Assembly (NCBI GenBank): GCA_037176725.1
Contig: JAZBRS010000049.1
Span: 38,122,001-38,186,000 of the forward strand
DNA from: Posidonia oceanica
Lineage: Eukaryota > Streptophyta > Magnoliopsida > Alismatales > Posidoniaceae
Direction: 5' to 3'
Length of the DNA: 64,000 nucleotides
Under the pieces are notes generated by a model that saw only the letters and a program-made list of their open reading frames with translations, was not told the origin of the DNA and did not search any database. This document shows positions 31,558-61,476 of the stretch, in pieces. Position numbers and translations under genes: made by a program. Each line of letters opens with the position of its first letter. Within the stretch, counting starts at the first letter, position 1.

Positions 31558-31571
31558 GATGCCCCTCCTTA
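31558..31571 (-). promoter_or_regulatory. Polypurine tract of the left Tat element
   Basis: The minus strand reads TAAGGAGGGGCATC and then TGTAGATATCC, the same junction as at 8386, 26532 and 60884. It places the 3' LTR at lower coordinates and the internal region at higher coordinates. Confidence 0.8.
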
Positions 31572-32591
31572 GCGTTGATCTTGGAACATGATCGATTCCA
31601 AGGTAAGAACGATGTCCTATTGAGCATTTCCTGAAAAGGGGAGCTCCATCTCAAACAATTTGCCACTGAAGTAGCCAAAGGAAAGATAAAAAAGTGGGTT
31701 TAAATTGCCATCAAATTGGAGACTCAGGCATGGAGGGGTCAAGTCAGTTTCGACACTTGTGTCGCAGCCGAAGTCAAGACCAGGTCAACCATGTAGAGGT
31801 GTTCCAACAAGGCAAGAACTGAGGAGGAAATCGCAGGATGTTATTCCAACACGATCGAAAGGAGAGTGTGACATCTTGTTTGAGACTTCACTCAGATTGG
31901 AATTGATAAGAGGATAGGTATGAACTGGGTTGGCTCTAGGAGAATCATATGCTTAAAGGGTTTCTAACACTCTTGAAGAACAGTGCTCCGTCCGTGCTCC
32001 ACTTCCAATGATATGAGAAAGTGCATGGATGCATGATTCAAACAAACAAATGTAGATGCAAGGTCAACACGCGATGCAATGAATGATCCATATGCTAGGT
32101 TAGGCCGGCGGGGTACGATTGGTCCCAAACTATATGGACATGTGCAAAATGAATGAATGCAATTCGTTGTGGTCAAGTATTTTCCGTTCTCAAGTGTGAC
32201 CAGCACTCTCTGGAAAGAACCGTCGTCCCACAGCTCGATTTGGCAAGTAAAGAGGTTCCGTGCAAAGAGAACCGTTTGAGGGAGTGAACCCTTCATTTGC
32301 CAATCCGATATGTCGTCAGGTGTTCGTAGTGGTTGCGGTGGACGGTGTGTGAACTCAAGGCAAGAGTTCACTCCTCGGCTTCACAGTAGTAGATGGTCTG
32401 TTCTATTGGGTTAGTCGCCTCTTGACTAGGCGGCTAAGCTAGTCACCGATTGTTAGGGCGACACACGATCTCCTCGCTTATTTAGTTCAGAAATCGTTTT
32501 AAACCCTAATTCCTTTGATAAGGGGAGATAAAAGACGGCCGTCCTTGCTTTTTAGGAAGCATTCTGCACAATTAAACTCCTTATCTTGATC
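31572..32591. other. Spacer with no gene, left Tat element
   Basis: No domain or repeat array is recognised between the tract and antisense gene A. TTAGTCGCC-N9-GGCGGCTAA, a 9-base inverted repeat, lies at 32411-32437, about 160 bases before gene A. A 110-residue minus-strand frame (32499-32831) overlaps gene A and has no known domain. Confidence 0.45.
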
Positions 32592-33951
32592 ATGAAGCTT
32601 CCTTCCTTCTCTTCTTCGACCTTCCAAGTGAAGAGGATGGTTGATATCCCCAACCATTTGATGAAAGCTATCCGGGATGACCAAGTATGTTCTCCTATTT
32701 GTCTTTGCATGCTTTTCTTTGTGGTTTTGCCTCTGAATGTTGCTTGTTTTGGCCATAGTGAACCTCACGGGATGCTTGGACTTCCACAATTCTTTCCAGT
32801 ATACTCTACCGTGGGTGGCTGGCTTGATCAATCAAGTAGAGGATAACAAGCATCTCTTCGGGTGCAGTGGTTTCGACAAGCTACTTGATCTGATTCGCAC
32901 GCCTGTGCCTTGGCCATTGTTGCATGCTTTGATGGCTTTCTGGAATGGCTCCTCCAATACTTTCAACCTTCCTTGTGGGGAGACTTTGATCACATGTGAG
33001 GAGGTGTCTTCTTTGCTTGGGTTGGCAGTGGAATCTACTGAAGCAGCAGATGATCGTTTCGCCATTTTTGTTGAGACAGTGGGCTCCAAGAAGATAGGTG
33101 GGTATTTAGCAATGGATCAGGAGGTTAGCAAGGCTTTGATGCACTCGGGGAGACTCTTTCTTCGAGGCCTGTGGGAGGTTCTTAGCACCAGGCAACTTGC
33201 TGAGACTAAGCTGAGGAAGTGCTTGTTTGTAGTAGTTGGTGGCCTTTCCTTGTTTGCAGACGCAAATTTCACAATGGATCTTCACCATGTGGATTTCCAA
33301 ATGTTGGTGGCTGTTCGTTCAGACTTGTGCTTGGCTCCTGCCGAATTGGCTTACACCATGGAGGGGCTCACCAGTGCCTCTTGTTTAGGGAAGTTCTTTG
33401 GCTCTCCACTGCTGCTGCACAGGTGGTTCATGTCCCATTGTTGCTATGATACAGATTTTGCCGGCCTGAGCTTCCATGACTGCGTTCTCCGCCTTGGATG
33501 CTTGTCACTGCTGGATTTTGACTTTGTTCTGAAGTTGCTTGGAGCTCATAAGGCACGGGTGATGAGCACAATTCATAGTGACCTTGAGCTTGTCCTGGTG
33601 GGTGCTACATTGTTAGTGTTGTATCCCATCCATCGTTGTCCACGTCTGTTGAATCAGGAGCTAGTTGTCTAGGCTGATGTAGTTCTGACCCCTCCGATCC
33701 ACGTTCGCAAGGAAGACGGTGATCGAGATGAGAGGGTGGTCCTGGAGTACATAGCACGCTGGGTTCACATCGGCAGGCGAGTGTCTCTGAGTGCGCCTCG
33801 GCTTTCTGCAACTGCTCGGGAGTCCCAGGAGTCGAAGTACGTGAAGTGGTATGCACAGTGCTGCCCCACTCCTCAGAAATATGCTGATGACAGGCGGGAA
33901 TTCCTGAAGATGCTTGGGCTCAACCGCTCGAGCATGGCAATGCATGGCTGA
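32592..33951 (+). pseudogene. Gene A: plant mobile domain gene, antisense in the left Tat element
   Basis: Exon 1 (32592-32684, MKLPSFSSSTF...IPNHLMKAIRDDQ) ends in a GT donor. The second exon follows an acceptor at 32758 and codes for the PMD core: FDKLLDLIRTPVPWPLLHA, ETLITCEEVSSLLGL, CLFVVVGGLSLF, FFGSPLLLHRWF. The C-terminal part includes VVLEYIARW and YVKWYAQCCP and ends at 33951. The exon join is out of phase by one base, and an in-frame TAG (33670) interrupts the C-terminal third, so it is probably dead. Gene E has the same exon-1 phrase and intron position. PMD proteins such as MAIN/MAIL1 act in nuclear silencing and gene expression; the function here is unknown. Confidence 0.75.
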
Positions 33952-34221
33952 TTATGTTTTAAATTTTGATTTTAAGTCTAGTTGAATCATGTCTTAGTTT
34001 TTAAGTTCAAGTTTGGGTTGAATTATGTTTTAGCTTTTGAGTTTAAGCTTGGGTTGAATTACATTTTAGTTTCTAAGTTGTGTTTTGTCGTTTTCAATGC
34101 ATAAGTTTGTATTAGAGGGAAATTAAAGGAAGAAACTCTCTGTCCTCATTAGTCGCCGCTAATAATGGCGTCCATTCCAGTCGCCTCCTTTTAGGACGTC
34201 TAGGTTCGTGCCTTTCTAGAA

Positions 34222-37200
34222 TGTTCAAACTGAAGCGGGAAGGTCGGCGGGTGAAGAAGCTGAAGGGTCAGTTGCCTGTTGCGGAGGCGTCTGAGCGAGT
34301 CGCCGCTTCGCGTGGCAACCAGGGTGCGAGTCCTGTAGCAAACCTCCATCCAGCGGCATCTTTTGGTGGTGCGGCGGCGTAGTCCGGCGTGCTCCGGCGG
34401 TGCGGGTGGTGGTGATCTTCTTCCTCCTTCCTCCTCTCTGATGAGCGACAGAGAGGGAGACGTCGTGGGTGGTGACCCTCTTCCTCCTTCTTCCACCCTG
34501 ATGAGTGATAGAGAGGGGGACGTCGGCATCGAAGGTGGCAATGCGGGCGGTGGTGCCGACGGCGGTGACAGCGATGCAGGCGACCGGTCTCGTCGGCAGC
34601 AGAGGTAACCCTCTTTTCTTTTTTTTGGGTTGATTCTTCCATTGTTAAGTTTGGGTTGGATTTTTAGGTTTTGGAATTATGGAAATTTAAGCTTAAATGC
34701 ATGTGGAAATTTAAATTTTGTTCCGTTATATGGAAATTTGATGTTTGATTTCAGTTATTATGTAAATTCAGTTTTAATTTCGGTTTATTATGGAAATTTT
34801 GATGTTTAAATGCATATGGGAATTTAGGTTTTAAATGCATATGGAAATTTTTAAATTTAATTTAGGCTTATTGTAGAAATTTTAATTTTTAGTTTAGTTC
34901 AATGAATTCTGCTTTTTAGTTTAATTAATTAGTTTTTAGTTTAATTAATTCAATTTTTAATTAAAAACTCAGTTCTTAGTTTAAGATTCAGTTCTTAGTT
35001 TAAAATCTTTTTAATCTAGTTTTAGCTTCATTATAGAAATTTTAATTTCAGTTTAAGATGTAAATTTAGATTTTATGTAAATGGGAATGGAAGTTCAGAT
35101 TTTAATTGTGGAAATTGTAATTTTAATTTCAGTTATTCCGTTTAGTTTTAACTTCAGTTATTAGAGTTTAATGAATTCAGTTTCTTTAGTTTAATTAAAA
35201 ATTCGATTTGAAGTTTATGGAAAATCTGAATTTTCGAGTTTTAATTGTGGAAATTTAGACTTAAATTTAGTTTGGTTTAAGTTAACGGAAAACTGATTTA
35301 AATTCAGTTATTGGATTCAGTTATTTAAAGATATGTTTTAAATGTTAAATTTCTGATGTGAATGTGAAGTGGAAATGAAAATTTTGATGTGAATGTGAAA
35401 TGTGAACGGAATCCTTTTTGATGTGAATGTGAAAGGGAAATGGAAATTTTTATGTGAAATGTGAATGGAATATTTTGATATGAATGTGAAATGTGAATGA
35501 AAATCTATTTCTATGGAGATTTGAATGTTCATTTATTCCTTACTTTATGTATGTTGTTGATTTGTAGGAAAATAAAAAATTTTTAGTTGAAATTATAGGG
35601 GAGGTTGTGGCTAATTTTTCCTAGAAATTTAAGAGATTTAATAATTCTTTTTTAATTTGAGGAGTTAATTTCTGAATTAAAATGTGGATGGAATCATTTA
35701 ATGGATTAACTTGGAATTGAGAAATTAATTAAGGATTTTTGAAGTTAGTGATGGATTCGTTTAAAACAAAAGGATTAATATTGAGTTAAGAATTGAAAGT
35801 TAAATCTTAAGGTTTAGAGACTTTTGGGTTTTAAGGTTCGAATTTAAAGTTTGAATCTTTAAAGATGAATTTTGAAGGTTGGATTTTAAAGTTGAATTTT
35901 AAAGTTGGATTTTAGAGTTTGAATTTTTAGAGTTTGAATTTTTAAGTTAAATTTTTAAGTTGAATTTTTAAGGATTGATTTAAAGGGATTAACTTTAAGG
36001 ATTGAATTTCTTAACTTAAAGATTTTAAGGATTGAATTTTTAAGGATTGGTTTAAGTTAAAATTTGAAGATTAATTTTAAGGGTTAATTTTAAAGATAGA
36101 CTTATGTCTTAAATGGTTTACATGCCTCGTTAATTAATTAATGAGCTAACTTTTAATGGCTGATGTGTCTTGCTTAATTAATTAAGGTAACTTTTAATGG
36201 TTGATGTGTGCTATTAATTTAAGCATTAAAGAGTTAGATTAATTAACGAGAGAGGCAATTTTCTAAAGAGTTGGACAACTAAAGAGGGAGGTGATTAATG
36301 CAATTGTTCACCTTAATTAGGCAGGGAGGTAGATGATTAAAATTTTAATTGGTTAATTTAAGTTTTAATTGGTTAGATAAAGCGATTGATGATTAAGAGT
36401 TTTAATCGATCAATGTTTTGGTTGATTGATGATCAAGAGGAAGATTATTGATTAGTTAGATTGGTGCTTTGAAATGTTTAATGTTTAGGGAGATTAGTTA
36501 ATGTTCAAGAAAATGATTAAGGAGATTATTAATGACTTTAACTGACTATGCTCTGCTCGTGACACTATTTCATGGTTTCTGACGAGGAGGCTGAGACGGG
36601 GAGGGACGAGGCTGGTCCTTCTACTGCGGAGGCGAGCTCCTCTCGTCCTCGCAAGCTCCAGATGAGGCGTCCACATGCGCCGTCTCCTGTCCAGCCTAAG
36701 GTTGGTGGCGGTGGTGGGGGTGACCCTGGTTCAGGTGTAGTCCCTTCACCTCCTAAGAGAGCCTGTATAGCAGCAGAGCTCGCAGAGCTAGGCCAGGTGA
36801 GGTTATTTCATGTGTTTTTTTTTGGCTTTTATTAAGTTACTTTGCTTGATTTTTATTAAGTCGTTAATGTTTTTAATGTTTTCTTTTATGCCAGATGCCA
36901 TTGCCGAGCCGGGCGCGCTCCAGCTGGGAGGACTTGCATGAGACGTACATCAATCTCCTAGAGTTCCAACAGGCGAGACTTGCGAGGATGGGCTTCGGCC
37001 ATTTTTTGGAGATCATGCCCTTTGAGATCCACCTTGGACTCTTGGTCTCTTTTGCCGAGAGGTTCAACAACAGTTCCGGTAGCTTCATCCTTCGCGTGGG
37101 TGAGATGATGATCACCCTGGAGGACGTAGTTCGGCTGGTGGGCCTGAGGGTTGACGGAGAGCCCGTGGTGGCGGTTTTGCAGCACTGCTACGCTGATGAG

Positions 37201-39441
37201 CTGGAGGCCTGTTATGGTGCACGACCTCCCCCTTCTGGTCGCTACCATATGCATGTCAACGTCAAGTGGCTGAAGGACCGACTGGTCGACCTTCTTCTTG
37301 CTGATGAGGTGACTCTGGACATAGCGGACTAGCAGCTCCGGGCCTTCTTGTCTATTCTGTTTCATAGACTCTTCTTCGGCACGTCTTCACAGATGCTTCA
37401 TGTCGGTTTTGCCCTTCTCCTTCTGGATGTGGAGAGGATTGGTAGATATTCCTAGGGTTCAGCCGTGTTGGTCTATTTGATCTCTTGGCTGGAGTCCTTT
37501 GCTACGGGCCAGACCCGCTCTCTCTCGGGCTGTCTACCCCTTTTTTAGGTTTGTGCTTTATTGATTTGCCTGCCTTCTGTTTGTTTAACTATTGTTGACT
37601 TTGAACTGTTTCTTTGTGTGACAGACCTGGATTTTTGAGCACTTCGTGTACCTTCGACCCAGAGTCCCAGGAGATGTCCCCGTCGTGTTTCTCTGGGCTC
37701 GACGGTGGAGTGATATGCAGTTGGCTCCAGAGCAGCTTTGCCTTGTGGGACATCTGGGCCGCTTCCTGTTAGAGATCCTCCCAGAGGAGTGGGTGAGTTT
37801 CAGTGTTTAGACCCTTCTTTCCCTACATAGTTTGTTGGTTTCTGACTGATTTGTGCTTGTAGGTTGTCTGGAGACCCTACTCTGAGGATGAGCATGCCGC
37901 TGAGGAGCCCGTGGTGCACGGTTCCCACTTGTTTTTCCGGGAGTGCTGGCTCTTTAGCCTTTTCTGGTGTTACTATAGCCAGGTGGGCCGTGTCCTACGA
38001 CAGTTTGGCCTTCGACAAGTTGTCCCAGTGTCAGGTCCTACGGATTGCTCTCTGGGATCTATTAGAGGAGGTCGGACTGATGCTCCTCAGTGGTTTGCAG
38101 AGCAGCTCGAGAACTGGCGCTCGGGTGGCACAGCGCCCCTTTCTAGTGGTTCGGCAGAGACGGAGGCGGCGTGGAGGACCTGGTTTGATTCTAAGTTTGG
38201 CCATCTGATTGTCTTCCATCGTGCTGTGTTTTATGGTCGCTCCAACATACCGATAGGCGTTGATCCTGGTGTAAGCATTGGTGACCTTCGGCATGAGTTG
38301 GCTACTGCCCACAGCCGCATTGATGAGCTCGTAAGCAATTCCTTTTGGTGCTGTTTTATTTTACTGCTCATTTACTTGTTCATTTGCTTACGCACCTCCC
38401 TTGTTTGTGCCAATGGACGCTTCAGAGGGGATGACTGAGGTGTTCAGGACTCAGCAGCAGCAGCACTCCTTGAGAGTTGCGGAGTTAGTGCGGGAGAGGG
38501 ACGAGCTCCTGTCCCAAATGGATGAGCTTCGAGCATGAGTGAGTCTCATTTCCCTTTTTTAGTTGTTTGTGCCTGTTTCTGCTTGTTTAACTATTTCTTT
38601 GCTTTGATATAGGCCAAGGGTGCCTCGACAAGTGCAGAGCTTGCCCCTGCTGCCACCACAGGTCCAGCTGCTTCCCGTGCCGAGGGCATACTTGCTGAGG
38701 AGGTCCGGGCTCACGATTCAGAGGTACTACCACACTTTTCTTGCTTTAAGTGATTGTAAATACATGTCCTCTAACTCATATAGTTTCATTGTGCAGATTC
38801 AGGCGATGATGGATTTGATCTATACACCTCCAGCCACCGGTCCCACTCAGAGCCAGCTAGATGATGCCTTGGGGCGTGTCGAGGTGTTACAGGGGCATCT
38901 CAGTCAGGTGGAGAGGGAGCGTGATAGCCGTATCCAGGAGTTGGAGGCCCGTGTGGCTGCATCTGATACAGCCATGACTAGGGTTCAATTTGAGGCTTCC
39001 TCCATGAGAAGGGTACTTCTGTTCTGCTTTGATACTTTAGTTGTAGCTAGTTTTTCTGCCTTTCTTGCTGATAAACTGCTTTGACTCCGTGGTTTACTGT
39101 TTCTTGTTGCAGTTGAGTGACTTTCGGGCTCAGCAGCTGCGGGACATGGAGGCGTGACTGATGCAAATGGAGATGGCAGTTGCGACAGTTCTTCCCGGTT
39201 CTGATATAGCTGGTCTGATGCTGGCCCTTGTTGCTGCAGCTCCTGTGGGGTCAGGGCATTCTAGGGCTCTGACAACTGAGTAGATTTCAAGAGCGCGCTC
39301 TTCTCCTCATCTTGAGATGGTTCGTTCTATACTGAGGGCATCTCGGGAGAGGACCCATTGTGGGGTGGCGTCTTCAGTTGCACAGCCTACGCCGAGGCCT
39401 CCAGATGGTGGACGTGAGGGTAGCGGCGAGTCTTGCCACTG
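34222..39441 (+). pseudogene. Gene B: multi-exon PMD gene with coiled-coil tail, antisense in the left Tat element
   Basis: A probable 5' exon (to 34606, before GTAACC) is Gly/Asp/Ser-rich and carries a 60-base duplication coding PPSS.LMSDREGDV. After an A/T-rich gap comes an acidic exon to 36796. Further exons by GT-AG signals are 36895-37548 (PMD core, MGFGHFLEIMPFEIHLGLL, GEMMITLEDVVRLVGL), 37625-37792 (TWIFEHFVYLRPRVPG), 37863-38330 (PYSEDEHA..., FFRECWLFSLFWCYY), 38428-38538, 38613-38723, 38797-39012 and 39113 onward. The last exons are Gln/Glu/Arg-rich and predict a coiled coil. Stops TAG 37330 (gene D has CAG), TAG 37454 (gene D has TGG), TGA 38536, TGA about 39155 and TAG 39281 disable it. 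This is the architecture of PMD transposon-type genes; a host origin is possible. Confidence 0.7.
34607..36560 (+). other. A/T-rich low-complexity stretch, probable intron of gene B
   Basis: Nearly 2 kb is dominated by TTTAATT, GAATTTTTAAG and GGAAATTT words in slowly changing order, including a run of GAATGTGAAATGTGAATGGAA-like units at 35340-35500 and TTTTAAAGTTGGA-like units at 35850-36060. No gene is supported. It lies between two candidate exons of gene B. Confidence 0.5.
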
Positions 39442-40016
39442 AGCTTGTACCTTTCTTTTGTTTCTGTCAGAGTCTGTACTTTTCTTTTGCCAGAGTCTGT
39501 ACTTGTAAAGATGTGAATATTCATATGAAATGTTTTCTGCTTTGTTTTCCTGCACATGCTTTCTTTTCTTGTTAGTAATCACGAAGCATATCTTCCTTGG
39601 CGAAAGATTTGGTTAAGTTGATTAATTAATCAAAGAGAAGATATGTTAAATGAAAAGGTTTAGGCTAAGTTAATTAATTAAGAAGATGTAAATGTTAATG
39701 CAAAGAAAGCATGCTTATTTAAAATGGTTGGAGGGAATTAATTTCTGGCCTCAGCTAAAGAGATGGAAATCAGAGCCCAGTAGACACTGATTGTGAGTCA
39801 TCCGTGGATGCTCTAAAGATCATTATGTGAGTAATGTCTTTGTTGAGAGAACGCACCCAAGCCGTGAGACACGCTTGAGTAGGACGCTAACTATGAATCC
39901 TGATGAATTGATGGTTGCATCATCGGCCAGATTAATTCCAGTTTTCCTACTTACTAAGTTCTCACTTGTAGGTAGGTTGGATGTCTTGTTTTTATGGTTT
40001 TTGTTTTTTGGGATTT
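39442..40016. other. Intergenic sequence between gene B and the poly-T array
   Basis: No gene is recognised. It is A/T-rich with TTAATTAATTAA words (39610-39680), and is presumably 3' untranslated sequence of the minus-strand element. Confidence 0.4.
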
Positions 40017-40892: not shown

Positions 40893-43800
40893 TCAAGGGT
40901 AGTACCTTTTCAGGTGCATTGCGTTCCAAGGGTCAGGAAGATCTGTTCCGTTCTGGGACAATCGATAGGCATTCCCTGGATATGCAGCAACCACTATGTA
41001 GGGCCCTTCCCAGTTTGGCTTCAACTTTCCCTTAGGGTGGGGCTTATTGTAGGGCAACACTTCTTTAAGCACTAGATCACCAATTTTAAATTTACATTCA
41101 ATTACTTTCTTTTGGTAAGCCTTGGTTAACCTTTGTTGGTAGACACGCATATGCTTGGCGGCTGCTAGCCGTTTCTCATCAAGGAGTTCCAAATGAAGGA
41201 GTAAAGCTTGCCTCTTTTCTTCAGCAAACATTCTCCTATCAATCTTAATTCTTAATGAGGGGATCAAGATCTCGTATGGGACCACTACTTTCATACCAAA
41301 GGCTAAAGCATAGGGGGTTTGACCCGTTGCCGTCCTTATGGTGGTGTGGTATGCCCACAACGCATTAACAAGCTTATCTGACCAATCCGATTCCTTAGCG
41401 TCTTCTACCGTCTTTTTAATGATTTTGATTAAGGTTTTATTAGTAGCTTCTGCTTGACCGTTCCCTTGTAGGTAATACGGGGAAGAGTGGTGTAGAGTGA
41501 TACCGAATTTTTGGCATAACCGCTTGAACTCTTCTGAGATGAAGATCGGTCCGTTGTCTGCTACTAAGGCTTTAGGCACCCCAAACCTTGCAATGATATT
41601 TCGCTGTACAAATCGGCACAGGGTTGTGGCTTTGATGTTCACGAACGCCTCTGCTTCTGCCCATTTGGTGAAGTATTCCGTCGCCGTTAGGATGAATGTG
41701 TTGCCCTTTCCCTGATGGATGGGTCCCATCACATTGAAGGCCCACATAGAGAAAGGCCATGGTGTTGATAAAGCGTGAAGCGCTGAAGTTGGAGCATGAA
41801 TCTTGTTGGCGTGCAGCTGGCAGCTCTTGCACTGCTTGACTTTACTTACGCAGTCAGCTTCCATGGTAGGCCAGTAATACCCCCTTCTGATGATCATCTT
41901 AGCCATGAATTGGGAGTTGATGTGGCCCCCGCAGACTCCCTCATGTGTTTCCTTGAGAATCTCGGCTAACTCAGATGCATCCACACATCGGAGTTCAATC
42001 CCTAAGCTGTTCTCCGGAAGAGTGTGTTGGCTCTGATGTAGTACTTCGTAGCCATCCTCCTCAGTGCTTCTCTATCCTTGGGAGTTGCATCGGTCGGGAA
42101 GGTGCGATCTTGTACATAATTCTGTATGTCATAATACCACGGGTTGCCATCGTCATTTACTTCTGTAGCTCCTTGATAACAGACCTCTGTGCACATTAAG
42201 CTTTCCTGGTTTAGTTCCTCTCTGAGTGTTTGAACCCATTCGGTGGCAGACTCCACTGTTGGTGAGTTGATTCTTCGCACCGTGATGGTTTGCTTGTTTG
42301 TCTCTAAGCTGAAGGGGAGCGAGGATGCCAATGAGGCCAATGAATCAGCCAGGATGTTGTTGCTTCTAAGTGCATGCACATACATAGCCCTGTCAAATTT
42401 CTTCAGTAAGGCTTTAGCTAGGTTGCGGTATTCCTGCAGCTTTGGCGAGAGGGTCTTGTATTTGTTGAGGACTTGCTGTATGACAAGCTGTGAGTCCCCA
42501 AGTACTTTTAGTCTTCTTGCCCCTAGATCGAGAGCCATTCGGAGCCCTAGAATGAGTGTCTCGTATTCTGCAATGTTATTACTCGCTGAGAATAGTAGTT
42601 GGGCTGCAGCGGGGAGAACAATACCCTCTGGGGTGAGGAGTGTTGCCCCTATTCCGGCGTCCTGTGAATTAAGCACTCCATCGAAATGGAGGGTCCATTC
42701 TTTGATGAGTGGCACGACACTACTGATTGCCAGTATTTCCTCGTCTGGGAAATCTGTTGATATTGGCTGATACTCTAACACAGGTAGTCCGGCGAGTTGA
42801 TCCGCGATAGCTTGCCCCTTGATCGCCTTCTGAGTGATGAACTGCAGGTCAAACTCAGTAAGGAGCATTTGCCATCGTGCTAGCCTTCCGGACAATGCTG
42901 GTTTCTCGAACATGTACTTGATAGAATCCATCTTGGCTAAGTAGCAGACTTTGTGTGCTAGAAAGTAATGCCTGAGCTTCTGTGAGGCCTATACTAAGGC
43001 TAGGCAATGTCTCTCGATCTGGGAGTACTTCCTCTCATATTCAATGAACGTTCTACTGAGGTAATAAACCGTTTTCTCCTTCCTTCCAGTCTCATCATGT
43101 TGTGCTAGGACGACACCCACCGAGTTATCAGTAATGGCCAAGTAGAGTAGCAATGGCCTCTTGGGGACTGGAGCAGTCAATACTGGAGAGTTGAGGAGGT
43201 AGAGTTTTAGCTCATCAAAGGCCTTCTGACAAGTATGATCCCACTTGAATTCCGTGCCGCCTTTTAAAAGCTCATAGAATGGTCTACACTTTTTCGCATG
43301 CTGAGAGATGAATCTGCGGATAAATTGTAGCCTCCCTATGAGTCCTCTGAGCTCCTTGACATTCTTTGGCGGTGGCATGGCTGTTATAGCTTTAGCTTTG
43401 GTGGGATCCACTTCTATGCCCCTTTTGCTTACTATGAAGCCGAGTAGCTTTCCGGCAGTGACCCCGAAGACACACTTCTTGGGGTTCATTCTGAGATTGT
43501 ACTGGTCTGCTCTTCGGAGTACTCTTTCTAGTGCTTCAAAGTGTCCCTCTCTTGTTTTTGACTTTACTATCAAATCATCCACATAGCACTCCATGCAATC
43601 ATGTATCATGTCGTGGAAGATTGCCATCATAGCCCTCTGATAGGTGGCTCCAGCGTTCTTTAATCCGAACGGCATGACTACATAGCAGTAGGTTCTCCAT
43701 GGAGTGGTAAATGAGATTTTCTCTTGATCTTCTTCTGCGAGTTTAATTTGGTTGTAACTGGAGAAACCGTCAATGAATGAGAGCATCTCATGGCCTATAG

Positions 43801-50600: not shown

Positions 50601-51418
50601 ACCATTCGACACCAAAAGGCAGAATAGGTTCATCCTCACAGCCACTAAGGACTTCACTAAATGGGCTGAAGCAGAAGCGTTCACTGAAATCAAAGCTTCA
50701 AATCTTTGCAAGTTCATGCAGAAAAATATCCTCTCAAGGTTCGGGATCCCAAAGAAATTAGTAGCAGACAATGGCACAAGCTTCGTATCGCAAGATTTCA
50801 AAAAGCACTATAAGAAGTTTAAGATTGAATTGCATCATTCGTCGCCATATTACCCCCAGGGTAATGGGCAAGTTGAAGCCACAAATAAAATGTTAATCCG
50901 AATCCTTAAGAAAACGGTAGGAGGAACCAAGGGACATGACTAGACAAATAAGCTAATTGATACCATATGGGCCTATCAAACCTCCATAAGAATGCCTACG
51001 GGCCAAACCCCGTTTACGCTTACTTGTGGTATGGAGACAGTAGTCCCATTTGAGGTCATGGTCCCCTCATTCAGGGTACAACTTGACGATGAGATAACTG
51101 CCGAGGATAAGAGACAATTATTAAGTCTACAGTTGGATTTGCTAGATGAGAAGTGGTTGCAAGCAGCTGAGCATGCCCGTCTCTACCAAGAACGACTTGC
51201 AAGAGCATATAAGAAGAAAGTAATTGAACATAAATTCAATGTTGGTGAATGGGTGCTTAAAGAAATCCTTCCTCGCAAGCATGGGAAACTGAGACCAAGA
51301 AGGACCATACTTGGTGGTTGAGGCATATCCGGGCAATGCCTATTGTTTGGCCAGAGAGGATGGCACTAGGCTTGAATATCCCTAGAATGCACTGCACCTC
51401 AAGAGGTACTACCCTTGA
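47631..51418 (+). pseudogene. pol: Tat pol: reverse transcriptase, two RNase H domains, integrase
   Basis: The start at 47631 lies in a different frame from protease, with a 50-base overlap. An acidic N-terminus leads to RT (VVYPSWVSNIVPVAKKDGKV, CIDYRNLN, MPFGLKNAGATYQ, YVDDILVKS near 48757). First RNase H lies around 49180-49400. The archaeal-type RNase H (49640-50020) has D of YFDG, E of NNVAE, D of GDSQMV and D of LLADAL. Integrase has the zinc region (HEGICGGH...CRQC), D of MWAFDVVGP, DNG, NGQVEATNK and a GPY-like end. Frameshifts lie near 48645, 50550 and 51295. In-frame stops are at 48782, 48842, 49163, 49778, 50045, 50219, 50941 and 51382. Integrase triad residues are intact here, unlike in the left copy, but the gene is dead. 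Confidence 0.9.
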
Positions 51419-53022
51419 TATGCACACTGAGCCATTAGACTACCCGTGCTTAAGGGCCTACTGCTGTTGAAGCCTAGGAATCATGCCTTAGCCTCACCCC
51501 ACAAACACTTCATGGAGAAGGAAAGGAAATGGTCCAACACTGAGATAGAGGCAAATCATAAGGAGCCCTCTCCCAGTTCATGAATAACAAGTCTACACAC
51601 ATCCCTCGAGTCAGACACGTTACCCTAGTACAAATCGGGTAGGCGTCTAAGGCCAAAACCTAGAAGCGCAGAAAAGAGGGGAGTGTACCAAATAAAAGAG
51701 TGTCTCGGTTCGTCAAGGAATGAGTATCTACTGACTGAGCACTCAGAAGGGGTGAGACTACTTGCCAAAATACCCAGAAAAGAAAACAAAAGGGTCAGCA
51801 AAGAAGCTGTCCATGTGCAAGAAAAGAAAGAGAATGGAAAAGAAGGCAGCAAAGAAGCTGTCCAAGAGTCAAAACTGAAAAGCTGGGGAATACTAAGCGT
51901 AGTAGGAATCAACCTTGAACTAAGAGGGGTTTAGGCTTCAAATTTTCAGCCGACATCTTAGGATAGGGCATGGACTTTCCTTCCACCCACATCCCACACT
52001 GTACACATTAGAGGCAAGGGGTAGAGGCCTAGGTCTAGGGGCAGTTAGGTGCCAAAGCAAGCCCGAGATATTTTCTGACTTCGAGATGCACAAGGGACCA
52101 AACTGTCAAGGTTCTCCAGCCATGAGGTCTCTAGTTTCCCAACTTCCCAGAGCATTCTTCGTCTCCCATAAAATCAAAAATCCAAAAAATGATAAAATCA
52201 AAAATCCAAAAAATGATAAAACCAAAAATCCAAAAATAGTGAGTAGGGTAAAATCTACCCAACCAACATCACCTCATGAAACTGATAACAAGGCCAATGA
52301 TGTGAAAATTTAGGACATTTTACGACTCCACGTCGTACTTGACCCCTCTTATTCAAGATGGTCACATGATATTCGCCTACGAGCTAAGACTAGGATCTCG
52401 AGAAGAGACAGTCCCTCGTCTGGCATATCATCTTTAGACAACAAAGCTGAGGCCAATACTTGTTATTCAAAACCTAAGTTTCCCTTAACTTCTCCATTAC
52501 ATTAAGACTTCTTTTTTCCCATTCATAGCATTAGGTTTGCTTAAAGTATGCATTGTATATAGGTTGTTACCAAGTGTAACCATTTTGATTTCACAGTATT
52601 AAGGATGTTTCTGAGTTTCCAGAAGTCACTTTCGACTAAGGGCAATAATCCCCCTAGATGGATTAACAAATTTGCTGAGGTTGTGTAGGAGAACAGTTCA
52701 GGGGCGTTAAACGAGCAAATACCAGCGTCCAACATTAGACGCACTATCTGAAGCGTATAACGACCAACAAAGGGATATCGGACGCCTGTCATCACGCGTC
52801 CTACGTTATAAGTGCCAGTTTAAGCGTCTTACATTTTAACTGTGACTTAAACTACAGAATTTGGACAAAGGGCCTTTGATCAAATATCAAAGCCACTAGG
52901 GAGTATTTCTAAACTCAAAACAGTCCAAAACACATGAACAAGGATGAAAAAAAAAATGAAAGTTATATTTATTCCTTTAAAGAGATACATGGTCCCCAAA
53001 AATAAAATATTACAATAATTGC
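51419..53022 (+). other. 3' untranslated region after the right Tat pol
   Basis: No gene is supported. It contains repeated GCAAAGAAGCTGTCCA (about 51797 and 51851), an A-rich repeat AAAATCAAAAATCCAAAAAAT (52168-52236), and at 52700-52830 a cluster of GCGTCCAACATTAGACGC-like words. The A-rich repeat and the AAGAAGCTGTCC words match the left element at equal distance from pol. Confidence 0.5.
52700..52830. promoter_or_regulatory. AACGTT/GCGT motif cluster downstream of gene C
   Basis: Words include GCGTCCAACATTAGACGC, GCGTATAACG, GCGTCCTACGTTATAAG and GCGTCTTACA, the same family as in the LTR at 61110-61430. It lies past the 3' end of gene C, and could instead serve a plus-strand function. 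Confidence 0.45.
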
Positions 53023-54366
53023 CTATCTAATCATCTTCTTCCTTTTCCTGCACAGCACGCCCGTTGATTCAACCCACTCCTCGGGTTTGGGCAGTAGTTT
53101 TGAATACCACCTCCAATGCGCATCCTCCCGTGGTAGGCAGCAAGCCGAGGGAGCAGCTGATGGCCCCTTTGAATCATCATGGCGATCCAAAGACGACCAA
53201 AGAGCCCGAATGTAGTACACCATTACTACATCAAATGGAAGACTACGCTCCCGAACCCGAATGCGAGGAATAAAGCTCAGCCGAGGTGGCACCCCTTTCT
53301 TCTGCCCCACCATCTCAAAGCAGCGATGGGAGTTGTACACCACAAAGTGGGTGGGCCCTATCAACTCCAACTCAACTGAAGAACCTCGCACCTGGTGCTT
53401 ATGATAAAGGGATGTGGAGAGCACGAAGATGTCAATAGGGGCAGAGGACAAATAGCAAACCCTTTCCTCGATCAAATCTGTCTTCACAGGCCCAAGTCTC
53501 GGGAAATGGACCTGCAGCCACCTGGAAAGAAGGAAAGGAGAGCCTACAAGATCCCCTCCGGTGGAAACACTGGTCAGACCGAGATATGTAGCAGCAAGAA
53601 TAGCAACTGAAGGAGAACGCCAGAAGTGCTCAGTAAGGCCTATCAAGAACTCAGTGTGATAGACATCCAAGGAGAAGTCCTTGGTGACAAATAAAGTGAG
53701 GCCTCCAATCAATAAATGCAGACACACTAGTAGCTGATCCTGAGAGGCAGAGTCTGCAATCCGCCGGAAGCTGAAGTACAGATGTGCCAAGTTAAGCCTG
53801 CGACCTCTAATCACTGGGAAGGTAGGCGGAAGGGTGAAGATACGGTCTACGAATGTTTGCATATCTGCTGTTTCATATGGCAATGGGAAATCAATATCTG
53901 GCCAGGCCGCTCCAATCTGAGTCACACCAAGCAGGCCATGAACATCCTCTACTAGGATTGTCGCCTCACAACCCCCAAAGAAGAAAGTGTGAGTCTCAGG
54001 ACTCCAGAAGGCGCATGAGGCATGAAGCATGGGCCAATCCAAGTTTGTGCCCAATAAATCCAAAAGTCCATCAAAGCGCGTACGGGCCAAAACAGATTTC
54101 CTTTCTCGAGCCCAAAGCATAAAGTCCTTCACCCAAGTAGAGTAGTAGGGGAAGTCATTATCAAAGCAAGGTGTTTTGGTAAAATGGAGGATTTCCTGCA
54201 AAAAAATAGAAAGCATGTGGAACAAAGGAGTGTGAAGGGACCAATGAAGAAGATCATACTTTCCCATTTTGATAAGGGATATCATATGCCCTTCAATCTC
54301 TTCCAAAGGTCTTGCAACACCCTTCTTGTTGTGCATGAAGACGTTGGGAACTGAACTAGAAGCCAT
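53023..54366 (-). CDS. Gene C: plant mobile domain protein, single open exon, antisense in the right Tat element
   Basis: This frame of 447 residues from Met at 54366 (MASSSVPNVF) has no internal stop; an upstream Met at 54396 is also possible. I prefer 54366 because the ten residues before it are a hydrophobic run without counterpart in relatives. The PMD region spans roughly residues 60-330: FDGLLDLLGTNLDWPMLHAS, EATILVEDVHGLLGV, LLVCLHLLIGGLTLF, GDLVGSPFLLSRW. The C-terminus is basic (CRKRKKMIR), possibly a nuclear signal. Plant PMD proteins act in the nucleus in silencing and mRNA control. The gene runs opposite to pol, 1.6 kb beyond its end. A motif cluster (54600-54715) lies upstream and another (52700-52830) downstream. 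The fragment at 965-1350 is a close relative. Expression is untested. Confidence 0.75.
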   Translation of the reverse strand: MASSSVPNVFMHNKKGVARPLEEIEGHMISLIKMGKYDLLHWSLHTPLFHMLSIFLQEILHFTKTPCFDNDFPYYSTWVKDFMLWARERKSVLARTRFDGLLDLLGTNLDWPMLHASCAFWSPETHTFFFGGCEATILVEDVHGLLGVTQIGAAWPDIDFPLPYETADMQTFVDRIFTLPPTFPVIRGRRLNLAHLYFSFRRIADSASQDQLLVCLHLLIGGLTLFVTKDFSLDVYHTEFLIGLTEHFWRSPSVAILAATYLGLTSVSTGGDLVGSPFLLSRWLQVHFPRLGPVKTDLIEERVCYLSSAPIDIFVLSTSLYHKHQVRGSSVELELIGPTHFVVYNSHRCFEMVGQKKGVPPRLSFIPRIRVRERSLPFDVVMVYYIRALWSSLDRHDDSKGPSAAPSACCLPREDAHWRWYSKLLPKPEEWVESTGVLCRKRKKMIR

Positions 54367-54599
54367 GAAAGCAAAAGAGAGGAAAGGAAGAAGCACAAAT
54401 CAAGAAGAAATCAGTAGGGAGGAAAGGGGCAAGTATGCATGAAAATCCAAGGGGTGGCCAAGCTTTTATAAGCACAAGAGGGCCATCAGAAATCCCACAC
54501 GCGGGCATTGAGAAAATTTCGCAGCATTCCGGAAGATTAGCCAAGAACAGGAAAGGAAAGAAAGGATTCTGGGCTCGCTTCGTTGTACGCGAGATAGAG

Positions 54600-54715
54600 C
54601 GCATCCAACGTTAGCCACGCTACTTAAAGCGTATAACGTTTGGATCAGCTACCCGGCGTTGGATGTAGAAATTGAAGCGGATAACATTGGCCGCACCAGA
54701 TGAGGCGTATAACGT
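54600..54715. promoter_or_regulatory. AACGTT/GCGTATAACG motif cluster upstream of gene C
   Basis: Within 115 bases: GCATCCAACGTTAGC, GCGTATAACGTTTGG, GGCGTTGGATG, GCGGATAACATTGG and GCGTATAACGTTTTA. The core is AACGTT preceded by GCGTAT or CATCC. It lies about 230 bases upstream of the gene C start. A regulatory role is inferred from recurrence and position only. Confidence 0.5.
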
Positions 54716-55149
54716 TTTATCAGTGACTTAAGTCACTGAACTTGGCTAGATTACCCCCTAATCCGTGATAGAGTTGCATGAGCCTGGTTTACCCACCCCA
54801 AGGGTTTAACTAAGTTGGAATACATGTGTGAGTGTTGGTTTCATTTTTTTTGGACATCCGGGCCAGTCGGAATCTCTGGTTGCTCATTTCATCAAGTAAA
54901 TGGCTCATTAAGGCATCGACGACTTCAAAATTCAATTTTTAAGCTTCCAGGTGAAATCTTTCCCTATAACTATGTCATTTACATACTACGTCACTTGAGT
55001 ACGCTGGTTTCATGTTAATTTGGATTAATGGCCATTATTTTACCATATTGGTTGCTTAAGCTCATTTTAGCTTTGAGAAAGGTAGTTTAAAAGAAGTATT
55101 TGACAAGTTTGCTGAGTGTGCAGAAATCTATATCATTTCAAAATATACA
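54716..55149. other. Spacer between genes C and D
   Basis: No gene or repeat is recognised. It is A/T-rich and lies between the gene C motif cluster and the broken end of gene D. Confidence 0.4.
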
Positions 55150-56807
55150 ATTGTTCTACAAGGTCGTAGAAAGGCGAAGTGGTCCCACGTCCACATCTGC
55201 ACGCAAAACGAGGAAGCTTTTAGCAAGAATATAATATCCAGTGCAAGCTCAAATATACAGATTTTACCTGAAGGAATGGCAGGTTCCCGCCTAGCTGGCG
55301 AGAACTGCCGTCAGTAAAGCGGAAGAGGGTGGAGTACAGGTGCGCCAAGCTGGCCGCACCCCAGGCGTACTCTCCCACGCGCTCCAAGTCCGCCAGGAGA
55401 GGAAGGAACCACGCCGAGAGTTTCGAGGAGGAGTGCGAAAAGAGCACCTCCCCGAACAGCACTAGGAGGAAGGCCCGTAGCTGCTGGTCGGCCTCCACGC
55501 CCGGTCCGGCTACTGTTTCTACCAGCTCACTAACTCGGCGAACCACGGAAGTGATCACCACAAGCTGCTCCCCGCTCATGGCTAGCTGACGTCCAACAAG
55601 CTCCTACGCCAAGGTTGAATAGCCCGAGCGCACCCGTCCCGTCACTGGTCTGCCTGTGACCCAGAAACCGGTCAGCCACACCATGTCCTCAAGGGAGAGG
55701 ACAAACTCGCCCGCCCTTGTGACGATCGAGCTCGTGCGGAAGTTCCACCGCTCTGCAACAGCTTCCAAGAACATCGGACGGAGAGGAAAGTCCGGGATGG
55801 ACTGGAAATGCCCAAATCCCATCTGATCCAAGCGCTCCTGCTAGAAAGTAGCCAACAAGGCGTAGGACCGGTGGACTTGACCCCAGTAGCTACGGGTCAC
55901 GGTTGGTGCTCGACTCTGCAAACAAGCAAGAGAATCATCAGTCAAGATGAAATAATTGGATAAAATAAAGGAAAAATGAAAAGATGTCTACCTGCCCCCT
56001 CAAAGCTAGTGTGGTAGTGGCGTACTCCGATTGAGACACGTCCCTACGCAGTCCTGATGCCTGCACCTCGTCCTGAGGGATCTGCTCCCGCCAGTAGTTC
56101 GGGGGATCCCTCACATCGCCCACTGCCTCCCGTCGAACGAAGTCGACCATGTTCCGCCACCAACTGTCGTCCTCACCAAATTGCGCAATGAAAGGATCGA
56201 CCGGCCCCACCTCTGGCACCTCCGCGGGCCCTGCCTCGTCCAGGCTAACCTCGGGACTCGTCTTCGAGAGCGTCTCCTCTGAGTCCTCGTAGCTGAAAGA
56301 GCTGCTGGAACTAGAGTCCGCCTCTGCCGTCGTCTCTACGGCCTCCTCGGAACTAGAGTCTGCCCCCATGGCATCCCCACTAGCCGTCGCCTCAGCATCC
56401 ACGGCGTCGCCATCGGCTGCCACCTCGGCCTCTACGGTACCACCACCAGCAGCCCCCATCTTCGCTCCCGCAGCCTCGGCATCAATGTCGGTCGTCACCT
56501 CGGCCCCTGCCACGTCACCACCAGCCGCCACCGTCTCTGCTGCAGTCCGGCATGCCTCCACGGCCGCCCCAGAAGCCACCTCCGTTTCAGCAACCTCGGT
56601 CACCACTCCCACAGTGGGAAAACCAGCCCCCACAGACGCAGCCCCGCCTGCCACGGCCCCGTCGACGGCCTCCGCAGCCCTCACCACCGTCTCCCCCGTA
56701 GCTGGGCCGGCTACCGGCATCTCCGACGAAGGCTCATCGAAAGGCAAAGGCCTCGTCCGAGCCCTCTTCGCTGTCTTAGTGTAGAAGTGGGAGATTCTCT
56801 TTTCCAT
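55150..56807 (-). pseudogene. Gene D: PMD gene, truncated, antisense in the right Tat element
   Basis: Exon 1 (56807-55992, start MEKRISHFYTKTAKRARTR) is a long low-complexity Ala/Glu/Val/Thr/Ser region followed by DDSWWRNMVDFVRREAVGDV and LALRGQ, then a GT donor. Exon 2 (55915-55268) codes the PMD core: QMGFGHFQSIPDFPLRPMF, GEFVLSLEDMVWLTGF, DQQLRAFLLVLFGEVLF, SLAHLYSTLFRF. A third exon begins near 55195 (TWDHFAFLRP, matching gene B exon TWIFEHFVYLRP) and breaks off at about 55150. Stops are TAG near 55843 (expected Gln) and TAG 55606-55604. It is the counterpart of gene B in the left element, with the same exon order; the 3' exons are lost. Confidence 0.7.
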
Positions 56808-56929: not shown

Positions 56930-57085
56930 CGTTATCTGCGTGAATTGCCGCATCCAACACATCAGGAAGAAGGAATGTTATACGCATCCTTTGGCCCGTC
57001 CAACGTTTTGAGAGTTAAAACATTATCCGCTGGTTTCCCAATGTACAACGTTGGCCGCTCCATTTTCAGCGTACAATGCTTTAAG
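56930..57085. promoter_or_regulatory. AACGTT motif cluster upstream of gene D
   Basis: CATTCAACGTTATCTGCG, GCATCCAACAC, GTTATACGCATCC, CGTCCAACGTTTTG, ACATTATCCGC, ATGTACAACGTTGGCCGC and GCGTACAATGC lie within 155 bases. The nearest is about 125 bases upstream of the likely start of gene D. This is the densest cluster in the window. Confidence 0.5.
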
Positions 57086-57256
57086 TTCAGGGAAGTGTTC
57101 TGAATTCTGATGCTTTCATTCAACTCATACAAATTCATTTAAAAGAGACAAAAGAGACGAAATAAATTTTATTGATGATAAATGATACATTTCTAACTAC
57201 ATTTTCTGTCTCTTTGAAGGAAATTCAATGAACAACTTAGGCCGCACGCCCTCATA
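57086..57256. other. Short spacer between genes D and E
   Basis: This A/T-rich spacer holds the 3' end of gene E transcription, judged by orientation; no polyadenylation signal is clear enough to call. Confidence 0.35.
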
Positions 57257-58555
57257 CTAAGCGTCATAAGTAGCAAGAGAGATGGCTTCGCGGTCCACGT
57301 TCGAGTTCTCCCATGCAGAAAGGACTCGGTTTCGCCCCTTCCCATCCCAAGTGCCAGCCTGATAGAAAACCTGAATGATGTCCCCGGGGGTGTCCCTCAA
57401 GCGCAGGAGAATCATGTCGGAGAAGCAAGGCAAGGGAGGTATATCCCGAGGAGTACCCAGCATCCAGAAGCATCGCTGAGGGTTGTACCTCACAAACTCG
57501 GTCGCCCCAATCAGCGTCAGGAAGTACTCTAGGTCAGACACTGTCCTGAAAGATGAGGGAGGATTGAAGGAGTCCATCTGGGACTTGACCTCACAAGCAC
57601 ATAAACGGCGAATGTACTCCTCCAAGGGAAGGCTAGCATCAAAGGCGGGAAGAAGAAAATGCTCCTCTAACCAGCGCAGAACTAGGAAAGGCGAGCCGAA
57701 GAATGGTCCCCAGAGGCAGGCACTGGATAAGTCCCGGATGGTAAAAGCCAAAACAGACTGACTCAAGCATTTCTCTGGATTGCGAATGCAGATGCACATG
57801 AGCTCAGCATGGTAGGCACTAATGGTCAGAGCTTCATTTGAGAAGAGTACCAGTCCCCCGATCAGAATAAAGACGCATTCCAAGCAGGAAGCCTCGGAGT
57901 GGATACTGTCGTGCTGTTTCCAGAAGAATTTCCACAAGGAGGAAAGTTTGATACTGCCATCTAGCACCAGGTCCTTCGGCACAACAACAGAGCCAAAGAT
58001 GCGCTTTGAGAGAGAAAAAGAGCCTACCACCCCGATTGGCAAACGGTAGGCATACCTGCAGTAAATGGACGGGTCGGCCTGTCGAATACCTAAAAGGGCG
58101 CTCACCTCCTCCAAAAGGATGGTCAACCCCCCTGAAGAGGAAAGAAACGTGTGAGTCAAAGGATTCCACAGCCCGCAAAGGCCGAAAAGCACCTTCCAGT
58201 CAATAGGCTGCTGCAACTGGCGAAGGGCCTGACAATGACCAGCCTCCTCCAAGCATTCCTGATACCTCTTCAAAGCCCAAGAGCGGAATTATTGAACCCA
58301 GTCCAACTGATAGGCTTTCGAGTCACTGTTGTTGTTAACAGAGGATAGGGGCTATGAAGTAAGAAAAATCAGCAGAGATAAAGAAATATGAGAATGGGAG
58401 TATGGGGTAATGATGAAAATGGGAAGTACCTTCTCATGCACCAAAAGGTTCACCAAATGATTAGGTATAGCCTCCAGCCAAAGTTGCACCATGTTGGAAG
58501 GAGAGGAAAAGACGGCCACTTGGAAGGCATGGAGCGGGATATCACTCAAATCCAT
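57257..58555 (-). pseudogene. Gene E: PMD gene with one intron, antisense in the right Tat element
   Basis: Exon 1 (58555-58430) codes MDLSDIPLHAFQVAVF...AIPNHLVNLLVHEK and ends at a GT donor; the phrase IPNHL is shared with exon 1 of gene A. The intron ends at an AG before 58351. Exon 2 runs to the stop at 57257 with the PMD core (IDWKVLFGLCGLWNP, GGLTILLEEVSALLGI, CVFILIGGLVLF, FFGSPFLVLRWLEEHF). An in-frame TAA near 58290 interrupts exon 2 close to its start, so it is listed as a pseudogene; the remaining 338 residues are open. The intron phase is zero, as at the gene A donor. A motif cluster lies 200-280 bases upstream. Confidence 0.7.
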
Positions 58556-58754
58556 GAGGAGAAGCACAATCCCTATCAAGTGAAAAATCAATAAAGAAAG
58601 GAAGATCGATGTTTGAACTACAAGATCCATGCCAAGATGGGGTCTAATATAGGCCGTGGAGCCTTCATCGGAATAGAAACCCAAAGAAAATCGGAGATTT
58701 ACTGCCAAAACGGTGGTGCCCAAACTGGAAAGACAGTCAGCTTGTCTCGCGACA

Positions 58755-58835
58755 TTATACGCAGCCGTTTTGCCATCCAACGTTAGCTGTGGCGTTTTAC
58801 CCGTCCAACGTTGAACGCTAAAAATCCAACGTCCA
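58755..58835. promoter_or_regulatory. AACGTT motif cluster upstream of gene E
   Basis: CATCCAACGTTAGC, GTGGCGTTTTAC, CCGTCCAACGTTGAACGC and ATCCAACGTCCAAC fall within 80 bases, about 200 bases upstream of the gene E start. It belongs to the same word family as the clusters before genes C and D. Confidence 0.5.
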
Positions 58836-58920
58836 ACAAATCAAAGCAGAATTGAGAGCAAATCAAAGAACCCTGGAGCACGACCGGGCCAACAAAGCAA
58901 GCAAAGCCAAAGAAGTATCC

Positions 58921-59466: not shown

Positions 59467-59480
59467 CTATAAAAAAAAAG

Positions 59481-60070: not shown

Positions 60071-60078
60071 AGCAAAGC

Positions 60079-60460
60079 CAACGGTATTAGTGAACCCACT
60101 GTTCATTAACTCCCGGGTCAGAAGATAATGGTCCCTGTCGAGAATGTAGGCAACATTCAATGAAAGGACACTTGATTCTGACGAATAAAGTTAACGGTAT
60201 TAATGGACTCATCGTTCATTGATTTCGGGTCACGAGATGACGGTCTCTGTCGAGAATGTAGGCAACATTCAATGAAAGGACACCTAATTGTGACAAATAG
60301 AGCCAACGCGGTCGGCAGAGAAGAGGTCATTTTCCCTTTTGCCTGGGAGCATCATGGACCTCTCGCTCACCAACCCGCATATCATGAGACGACGGTCCCC
60401 TAGGAGAGTGTAGGCTACGCTCGAGGAAAGGGCACCTGATCATGACAAATTGCATTCACA
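60079..60460 (+). repeat. 113-bp repeat, three copies
   Basis: Copies start near 60080, 60193 and 60306. The first two share AACGGTATTA, GTTCATT, TGTCGAGAATGTAGGCAACA and TCAATGAAAGGACAC. The third is diverged (GAGAGTGTAGGCTACGCTCGA, AAAGGGCACCTGATCATGACA). GAATGT-AGGCA-ACATTC forms a 6-bp hairpin in the first two copies. Confidence 0.8.
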
Positions 60461-60883
60461 CATGTGTCAGTCCACCTTAGGTGGTGAGAAAAATTCCTGA
60501 GCCAACCCACTATACAAATTAAAGCCGGCGATGATGGAGGAACCTCATTACCTAGGGTCATGCATTGCAGATCATGACCCCCTCTTTCACATTCCCATCA
60601 GCACGCATCCTTGCATAGCACATTGTATTGCATTCGCATTGAGTGGTCGTCGGAATCATTAGCTATCCATCCTTTTAGTTTGACCCCCGCGGGCAATCCC
60701 CGTGGCATGTCGTTAGTTTGTTCCCCTTCGGCAATCTCCTTGGCCGTGTTTCTTTAGCCGACCCTTATTGTGTCTCGTCCAAGTCTATGGCAGCAGGCAT
60801 TGGATTTCATTTAAGATCTCCAGTTAGCGCCGCACGGGGGTATCGTCTCGCCTTGTAGATAGCTTCGTGCCGAAGCCATCTTC
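60461..60883 (+). other. Last part of the right Tat 3' region
   Basis: There is no gene. It contains a diverged pair of the 44-bp unit (60682-60760) and a GTATCGTCTCGCCTTG phrase also seen at 20044 in element 2, followed by the polypurine tract. Confidence 0.45.
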
Positions 60884-60897
60884 AAGGAGGGGCAATC
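60884..60897 (+). promoter_or_regulatory. Polypurine tract of the right Tat element
   Basis: AAGGAGGGGCAATC is followed by TGTAGATACCCC, the counterpart of the tract at 31571-31558 on the other strand. Confidence 0.8.
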
Positions 60898-61435: not shown

Positions 61436-61476
61436 GAAATTTTGCTGACTTGGCATTTGTGTCCTTTTTTGTTCCT

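Follow-up and report, generated by a model that had tools for sequence, protein, structure and literature searches.

A 64,000-nt stretch of the Posidonia oceanica genome (contig JAZBRS010000049.1, positions 38,122,001 to 38,186,000; hereafter the window) contains two Tat retrotransposons lying back to back, with a head-to-head junction at about 43.95 kb and both without their 5' ends, and each carries plant mobile domain (PMD) genes in a long region between pol and the 3' long terminal repeat (LTR). In the left element, on the minus strand, pol (40893..43903) encodes reverse transcriptase (RT), RNase H, a second RNase H (RVT_3) and integrase, and the 3' LTR (30034..31557; 1,524 bp) starts with TGTAGATA at 31557, its borders being the exact ends of homology to positions 7819-9354 of another genomic stretch, L036. 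The right element, on the plus strand, comprises gag-pro-pol including a G-patch domain (43994..51321) and a 3' LTR (60899..62180) whose far end is approximate. A profile scan of the open reading frames (ORFs) gave the domain order RT_RNaseH, RVT_3 (77 bits) and integrase for the left element, which is a Tat element in that it has a second RNase H (aRH) between RNase H and integrase; in the right element, a scan of the broken ORFs detected no RVT_3. Pol and the polypurine tract (PPT) lie about 9.3 kb apart in the left element (the integrase ORF ending at 40893 and the LTR starting at about 31557) and about 9.5 kb apart in the right (from 51321-51419 to about 60898), in agreement with the value of about 9.4 kb in the first-pass annotation.

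The region in the left element holds two genes on the plus strand: A (32592..33951; exon 1 at 32592-32684, a short intron, and exon 2 to about 33951) and B (34222..39442), with PMD matches of 55.3 and 20.3 bits in two exons. B has a possible layout, read from its sequence, of a 5' exon, an AT-rich intron of about 2 kb, several short exons with the PMD, and a coiled-coil-like 3' part. In the right element three genes lie on the minus strand: PMD-like gene C (53023..54366; exon 1 at 54366-54260, a 64-nt intron, and exon 2 at 54195-53023), D (55155..56806), which is truncated in the window, and PMD-like gene E (57255..58555; exon 1 at 58555-58430, an intron, and exon 2 to about 57255). In both elements the PMD matches sit on the strand opposite to the RT/RNaseH/integrase matches, as had been claimed from the first reading. 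With the PMD profile (Pfam:PF10536; curated cut-off 34.9 bits), B (55.3 bits) and D (55.7 bits) scored above the cut-off in the window and A below it (31.4 bits), with two open copies of A elsewhere reaching 39.2 and 38.5 bits and an open copy of the PMD exon of B reaching 99.4 bits. C (34.3 bits) and E (24.3 bits) are under the cut-off, and they align with A and with each other at 27–34% identity.

The gene copies in the window are decayed: an in-frame stop interrupts both A and E, A also has an altered splice acceptor, exon 1 of C carries a small deletion, and D lacks its 3' half, of which protein-level traces are present in 6/6 right-family copies; the second exons of A and C are open in copies elsewhere. 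A homologue search yielded one protein (P0001, 249 aa), 89% identical to C and encoded on a 932-bp public contig, and a structure search matched no solved structure.

B and D share 31–36% identity over their aligned part, and copy alignments place the intron at the same position in A, C and E, extending to C the correspondence noted earlier for A and E. A, C and E are, by their sequences, one paralogue group and B and D another, so that the two elements carry homologous genes as first proposed. In a tree of 12 sequences, built in-house and small enough to serve as a guide only, A/C/E stood apart from B/D together with MULE and genic PMD sequences (support 0.97), with further support for B+D (0.93) and C+E (0.89). 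Since the order from the LTR inward is A, B in the left element and E, D, C in the right, one gene of each group is equally placed in both families. By the tree, both groups seem to be older than the divergence of the two element families.

The genomic search for further copies gave at least 127 scored matches for gene A and at least 92 for gene C, with tens of thousands of first-look candidates. For the left family, 20 stretches were chosen from the A matches, so that A is present by construction and B, integrase and the LTR are independent of the choice; the 6 right-family stretches are part of 20 picked from C matches. Both A exons and two B exons were found in the same order in all 20 left-family stretches (LTR-A-B-pol), the LTR start preceded A in 17, and the 16 stretches that extend as far as integrase all have it on the opposite strand. 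The span from exon 1 of A to the integrase end is variable in length, 6.6–8.5 kb in the 10 copies that were fetched in plus orientation and whose stretch reached the integrase end (8.3 kb in the window). In the right family, whose copies keep the order LTR-E-D-C-pol, DNA matches located a D exon in 4 stretches, E in 2 and the integrase end in 5, and the complete order E-D-C-integrase in one of the 6 (L032); several of these copies are thus partly deleted. With order and strand recurring in scattered copies, both around A and around C, the PMD genes belong to the elements, and the reading that they are independent chromosomal loci was rejected; neither such loci nor copies without PMD genes, the two outcomes against which the first-pass annotation had set its claim, occurred among the copies examined.

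The introns were also retained. That of A was present in 20/20 copies, with a GT donor in 19 and GC in one, and its in-frame acceptor AG, read from the alignment, was kept in 17/20; that of C was present with GT and AG in 6/6, and for B the putative splice sites reappear in most copies where they could be located (10–20 per site). The window copy of C is open across its intron, and C was considered as an intronless gene, but the six other copies show the intron. Antisense introns would be expected to escape splicing from the genomic RNA, and their retention is what such an arrangement would lead one to expect. Of the proposed retroelement lineage with a captured set of intron-containing PMD genes, membership in the elements and the keeping of introns have stood, and capture is one possible origin; it has been left open in print whether Gypsy or genic PMD came first (Ikeda et al. 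2017, PMC5418596).

Coding constraint was estimated as the ratio of nonsynonymous to synonymous variation (pN/pS) among copies, leaving out those matching less than 60% of an exon. In frame 0, with 21 sequences for each exon, it was 0.245 in A exon 2, 0.311 in B exon 2 and 0.534 in B exon 4; it was 0.257 in C (7 sequences), 0.153 in a D exon (5), 0.220 in E (3) and 0.337 in integrase (10). The check on constraint suggested with the original annotation thus gave 0.15–0.31 apart from the one B exon (0.53), beside 0.34 for integrase. The two other forward frames gave 0.72–2.08, except for B exon 4 (0.62–0.75). Variants shared between copies were more often synonymous than singletons in A (p 0.00015), C (0.00038) and D (0.0052; Fisher's test), and this contrast was not significant in integrase (p 0.088) or in B, whose exons 2 and 4 gave 0.37 and 0.17. 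A exon 2 was intact in 10/21 sequences and integrase in 1/10.

We found that a half-site, first seen by eye and specific to each family (TTAGTCGCC in the left and AACGTTNNACGCTG in the right), is repeated both in the LTR and before the PMD genes. The half-sites form inverted pairs at a fixed offset of 18 nt in the left family (9 pairs) and 20 nt in the right (15 pairs), and a 28-nt repeat is common to both (6 and 19 same-strand pairs, respectively). Their density in the LTRs and gene flanks is 9.1 (left) and 16.3 (right) per kb, against 1.6 and 2.6 elsewhere. On the left, palindromes occupy the LTR (30733..31209, inverted half-sites at multiples of 28 bp), a pair upstream of A (32411..32465), and sites that precede B or fall within its 5' part (34149..34322; those at 34149 and 34268 with up to 4 mismatches, those at 34177 and 34296 with 5). 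On the right, they form arrays upstream of C (54579..54716), D (56974..57080) and E (58751..58840), a pair downstream of C, between C and pol (52703..52764), which was likewise found in 6/6 right copies, and an array on a 28-bp lattice in the LTR (61107..61425) that ends 61 nt before TATAAAAGC.

Scanning the whole window with the right palindrome (34 bp, up to 6 mismatches) gave 12 matches, 4 in the right LTR and 8 beside C, D and E; at up to 7 mismatches there were 17, one of them outside (29959, adjoining the left LTR). The left palindrome (27 bp, up to 4 mismatches) also gave 12, with 8 in the left LTR, 2 before A and 2 in the 5' part of B; at up to 3 mismatches, 6 of 8 matches were in the left LTR and shuffles gave none, and at 5 mismatches 2 of 17 lay elsewhere. 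Reversed and complement controls gave 0, but 1 each at 5 mismatches for the left palindrome, and shuffles 0. Paired sites were not found in gag-pol or in the 3' tandem repeats when the window was scanned. Single palindromes of a third kind, perhaps belonging to a third family, are present at 9361 and at 29959-29990 (GTAAGACGCTGG / GTTAGACGCTGG).

Since the half-sites were picked from the same data, words were also learned in one region and tested in others, which is a fairer test. Words from the right LTR were enriched upstream of C, D and E (0/200 shuffles each) and not in gag-pol (115/200), those from the right gene flanks were enriched in the right LTR (1/200), and those from the left LTR were enriched before A and before B (2/200 each). 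Tests across families gave some borderline values (best z 2.3) and no strong enrichment. In a motif-free scan, periodicity at lag 28 (z > 3) was detected in 13 of 1,274 windows, 12 of which belong to the LTR/PMD-flank set, a set of 121 windows (9.5%); for the other 54 lags at most 4 windows fell in this set, the highest being lag 56. Within the set, lag 28 picks out the left LTR, the downstream flank of C and the flanks of D and E. An origin of the arrays as a duplicated piece of LTR was considered and rejected: in a self-BLAST (E ≤ 1e-5) no match reaching 80 bp linked the LTRs to the gene flanks, so that the dispersed motif alone is shared.

The arrays recur in the copies. In the 20 left copies the palindrome matched 26 times before A (19 copies), 47 times before B (19 copies) and 10 times elsewhere, with one match for the reversed control; the 10 consist of 7 in an LTR in one copy (L014) and 3 that are the A and B flanks of a shifted stretch (L015). 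In the right family, arrays were found both upstream and downstream of C in 6/6 copies, with 0 for the control. CpG dinucleotides were retained more often in the motif than outside it in three of four flanks (0.84 v 0.48, 0.80 v 0.70, 0.77 v 0.54) and no more often upstream of C (0.77 v 0.75). A derivation of these genes from PMD-MULEs was set aside: the PMDs of two other loci, L004 and L002, are only 14–27% identical to A–E (the low end for E), and the loci L001-L010 hold no palindrome at the thresholds applied. L004 has a MULE transposase next to its PMD, and on contig C62 the region of L004-L009 (about 0.36-1.87 Mb) has PMD matches spaced mostly about 25.4 kb apart, for long stretches on a single strand, as if in a tandem array.

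The distance from the end of the array to a TATA box is 61 nt in the right LTR, 60 nt in the left LTR, and 108, 52 and 99 nt before C, D and E, respectively. TATAAAAG lies 104-105 nt before the ATG of C in 7/7 sequences, TATA boxes precede D and E in the 2 of 7 sequences whose start could be placed, and AATAAA follows C in 5/7 and E in all 3 that were located. No canonical TATA box was found within 260 nt of A and B in 21/21 sequences. Each PMD gene looks like a transcription unit of its own.

PMD genes in Gypsy elements are said to have been listed since 2011 without a function, Steinbauerova et al. having in that year reportedly described PMD in extra ORFs of Tat elements, of varied position and orientation. 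Further criteria for Ogre are a tRNA-Arg primer site and an intron that separates gag-pro from pol; the 5' ends are absent from the two elements of the window, and the copies collected cover the 3' region. Likeness to Ogre-type Tat elements lies in the pol with a second RNase H (left element) and in the PMD-coding extra ORFs: a second RNase H between RNase H and integrase is described for angiosperm Ogre and Retand, and PMD for 57% of Ogre elements (Neumann et al. 2019, PMC6317226). The present elements appear to differ in having two or three PMD genes each, multi-exon, antisense and of two paralogue groups, and in sharing palindromes between these genes and the LTR. With Retand/Grande-type elements they have in common antisense coding sequence that separates pol from the 3' LTR, and tandem repeats nearby (PMC11963269; PMC7264820). 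However, the antisense ORFs of that type are mostly TRP28 (97% of clusters) and the pol-LTR region is given as 2.9–6.6 kb (Vicient 2025, PMC11963269), whereas here the region is about 9.4 kb and no TRP28 (PF04195) match was found at E ≤ 0.01 in the 20 window ORFs scanned; with no antisense TRP28 ORF, Retand membership was set aside. The carriage of PMD genes is of the same kind as that of the Gypsy-encoded PMD proteins described across angiosperms in 2017 (PMC5418596).

Another system to be compared is VANC/VANDAL, in which the VANC proteins bind short motifs that form arrays in non-coding DNA of the transposons encoding them (PMC5735166, PMC10398659). The likeness, one of layout, is that of a gene for an element-encoded protein combined with family-specific arrays of short motifs in non-coding DNA of the same element; VANDAL, for which binding has been demonstrated, is a DNA transposon, whereas the present elements are retrotransposons known from sequence. 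Ikeda et al. (2017) raised anti-silencing for MULE-borne PMD (PMC5418596). PMD in Gypsy elements is already published (PMC5418596, PMC6317226, PMC9289625), and a search of the open-licence literature turned up no account of palindrome arrays associated with PMD genes. The arrays shared by LTRs and PMD gene flanks, which go beyond what the first-pass annotation claimed, are therefore new as far as the literature search reaches.

These data suggest, with a probability that we put at about one half, that the two are Ogre-type Tat elements in which the long 3' region, an antisense accessory module, forms a self-regulatory circuit through its own palindromes. The module consists of an A/C/E-type gene beside the LTR and a B/D-type gene in the middle, to which the right family adds another A/C/E-type gene, beside pol. 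Palindromes specific to each family stand on a 28-bp lattice before each gene and in the LTR, there preceding the TATA box that would drive gag-pol. It may be supposed that i) one or more PMD proteins, or a complex of them with host factors, recognise the palindromes of their own element, ii) this recognition de-silences the LTR, or activates it, and keeps the PMD genes expressed, and iii) the antisense placement preserves the PMD introns in the genomic RNA. Palindromes common to the LTR promoter and the PMD promoters point to common regulation, and a half-site that differs between families while the lattice is kept favours an element-encoded factor; PMD proteins are the only extra element proteins seen here. 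Since VANC binds motifs arrayed in its own transposon, the effect of the circuit is by analogy probably anti-silencing or activation, with repression as its mirror image. A broader proposal, which we regard as tentative and below an even chance, is that the PMD proteins are sequence-specific, family-specific palindrome regulators co-diversifying with their sites, and that MAIN and MAIL1 share ancestry with this anti-silencing machinery.

Several observations weigh against the proposed circuit. The half-sites were chosen from the window in which they were tested, and shuffle tests with them are therefore not independent; words from the left gene flanks showed enrichment in the B gene too (0/200), which has an AT-rich intron; and the lag scan missed the right LTR and the DNA upstream of A, B and C. 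Across copies, conservation in the motif columns hardly exceeds that of neighbouring columns (identity 0.906/0.888, 0.894/0.860, 0.905/0.892 and 0.854/0.875 in the four flanks). The 22-bp form of the right palindrome, with up to 2 mismatches, has 100,167 matches in the genome (3 for the reversed pattern), which speaks in favour of the circuit, but this is a genome-wide count irrespective of location relative to PMD genes. A has only a weak TATA-like box, 12 nt from the array, and B none. As to constraint, the reverse frame sharing third positions is also low (pN/pS 0.23–0.53), B exon 4 (0.53) is indistinguishable from its out-of-frame controls, and the values for A and C are biased down because their copies were gathered by protein similarity; the copies of B, D, E and integrase were not selected in this way.

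Among other explanations, a host transcription factor could bind the palindromes and be used in parallel by the LTR and the PMD promoters, the PMD proteins serving nuclear import, integration or chromatin targeting. The TATA architecture shared by LTR and genes needs only one common activator, nothing links the palindromes to a PMD protein, and Grande has a nuclear accessory protein expressed from its own promoter (PMC7264820). A single host factor, however, would be expected to hold its site constant, and here the half-sites differ between families of similar lattice geometry, with no strong enrichment across them (best z 2.3). We regard this explanation as unlikely, if a serious one.

The same circuit could also work with the opposite sign, the PMD proteins repressing or limiting their own element. 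MAIN and MAIL1, the host PMD proteins, are silencing factors that help to silence transposons (PMC5418596, PMC7156037), and auto-repression would likewise place common sites at the LTR and PMD promoters; we nevertheless consider it rather improbable, the high copy numbers in the genome arguing, if weakly, against strong self-limitation. Improbable, too, is a role of the PMD transcripts as RNA, in which antisense transcription would yield double-stranded RNA and small interfering RNAs tuning the element, with the proteins mattering little. By position the antisense genes do overlap the genomic RNA, and PMD genes of the tea plant give 21-nt phased small interfering RNAs (PMC10673657), but RNA alone does not require conserved splice sites or an in-frame constraint that matches integrase for most exons tested. 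That the PMD genes are passive cargo hitch-hiking without function, and the arrays leftover promoter duplications, accords with the decay of all gene copies in the window and is very improbable in view of the constraint in other copies and of the motif being shared without any LTR/gene-flank self-BLAST match.

If the PMD proteins regulate the palindromes of their own family as in the broader proposal, such sites would number roughly 100,000 in the 2.96-Gb genome. The relation of element-borne PMD to the host silencing factors MAIN/MAIL1 is posed as an open question in print (PMC5418596), and the arrays at LTR and PMD promoters offer a concrete candidate target for PMD proteins; as this target differs per family, binding and specificity are directly testable with two proteins and two DNA probes. 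The introns retained in the antisense genes show a way for a retroelement to keep spliced accessory genes.

Other features of the window and of its relatives were recorded. The homologous region of L036 (7819-9354) is a left-family-related LTR (77% identity) inside a right-family E gene, apparently a solo LTR, around which no clean target-site duplication was seen. A gene C-like fragment on the minus strand (792-1342; 78% DNA identity over 988-1342) adjoins the start of another element. The G-patch domain of the right element lies at 46784-47680, and G-patch is already listed for plant Gypsy elements (PMC9289625). Directly 3' of the right LTR is another Tat pol fragment, on the minus strand (62100-64000; RT-like at 62361-62749). 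In the right element, 44-bp and further tandem repeats (58874-60081) separate gene E from the PPT, and a 50-bp tandem repeat array at 19974-22000 contains 37 reference-length copies in register.

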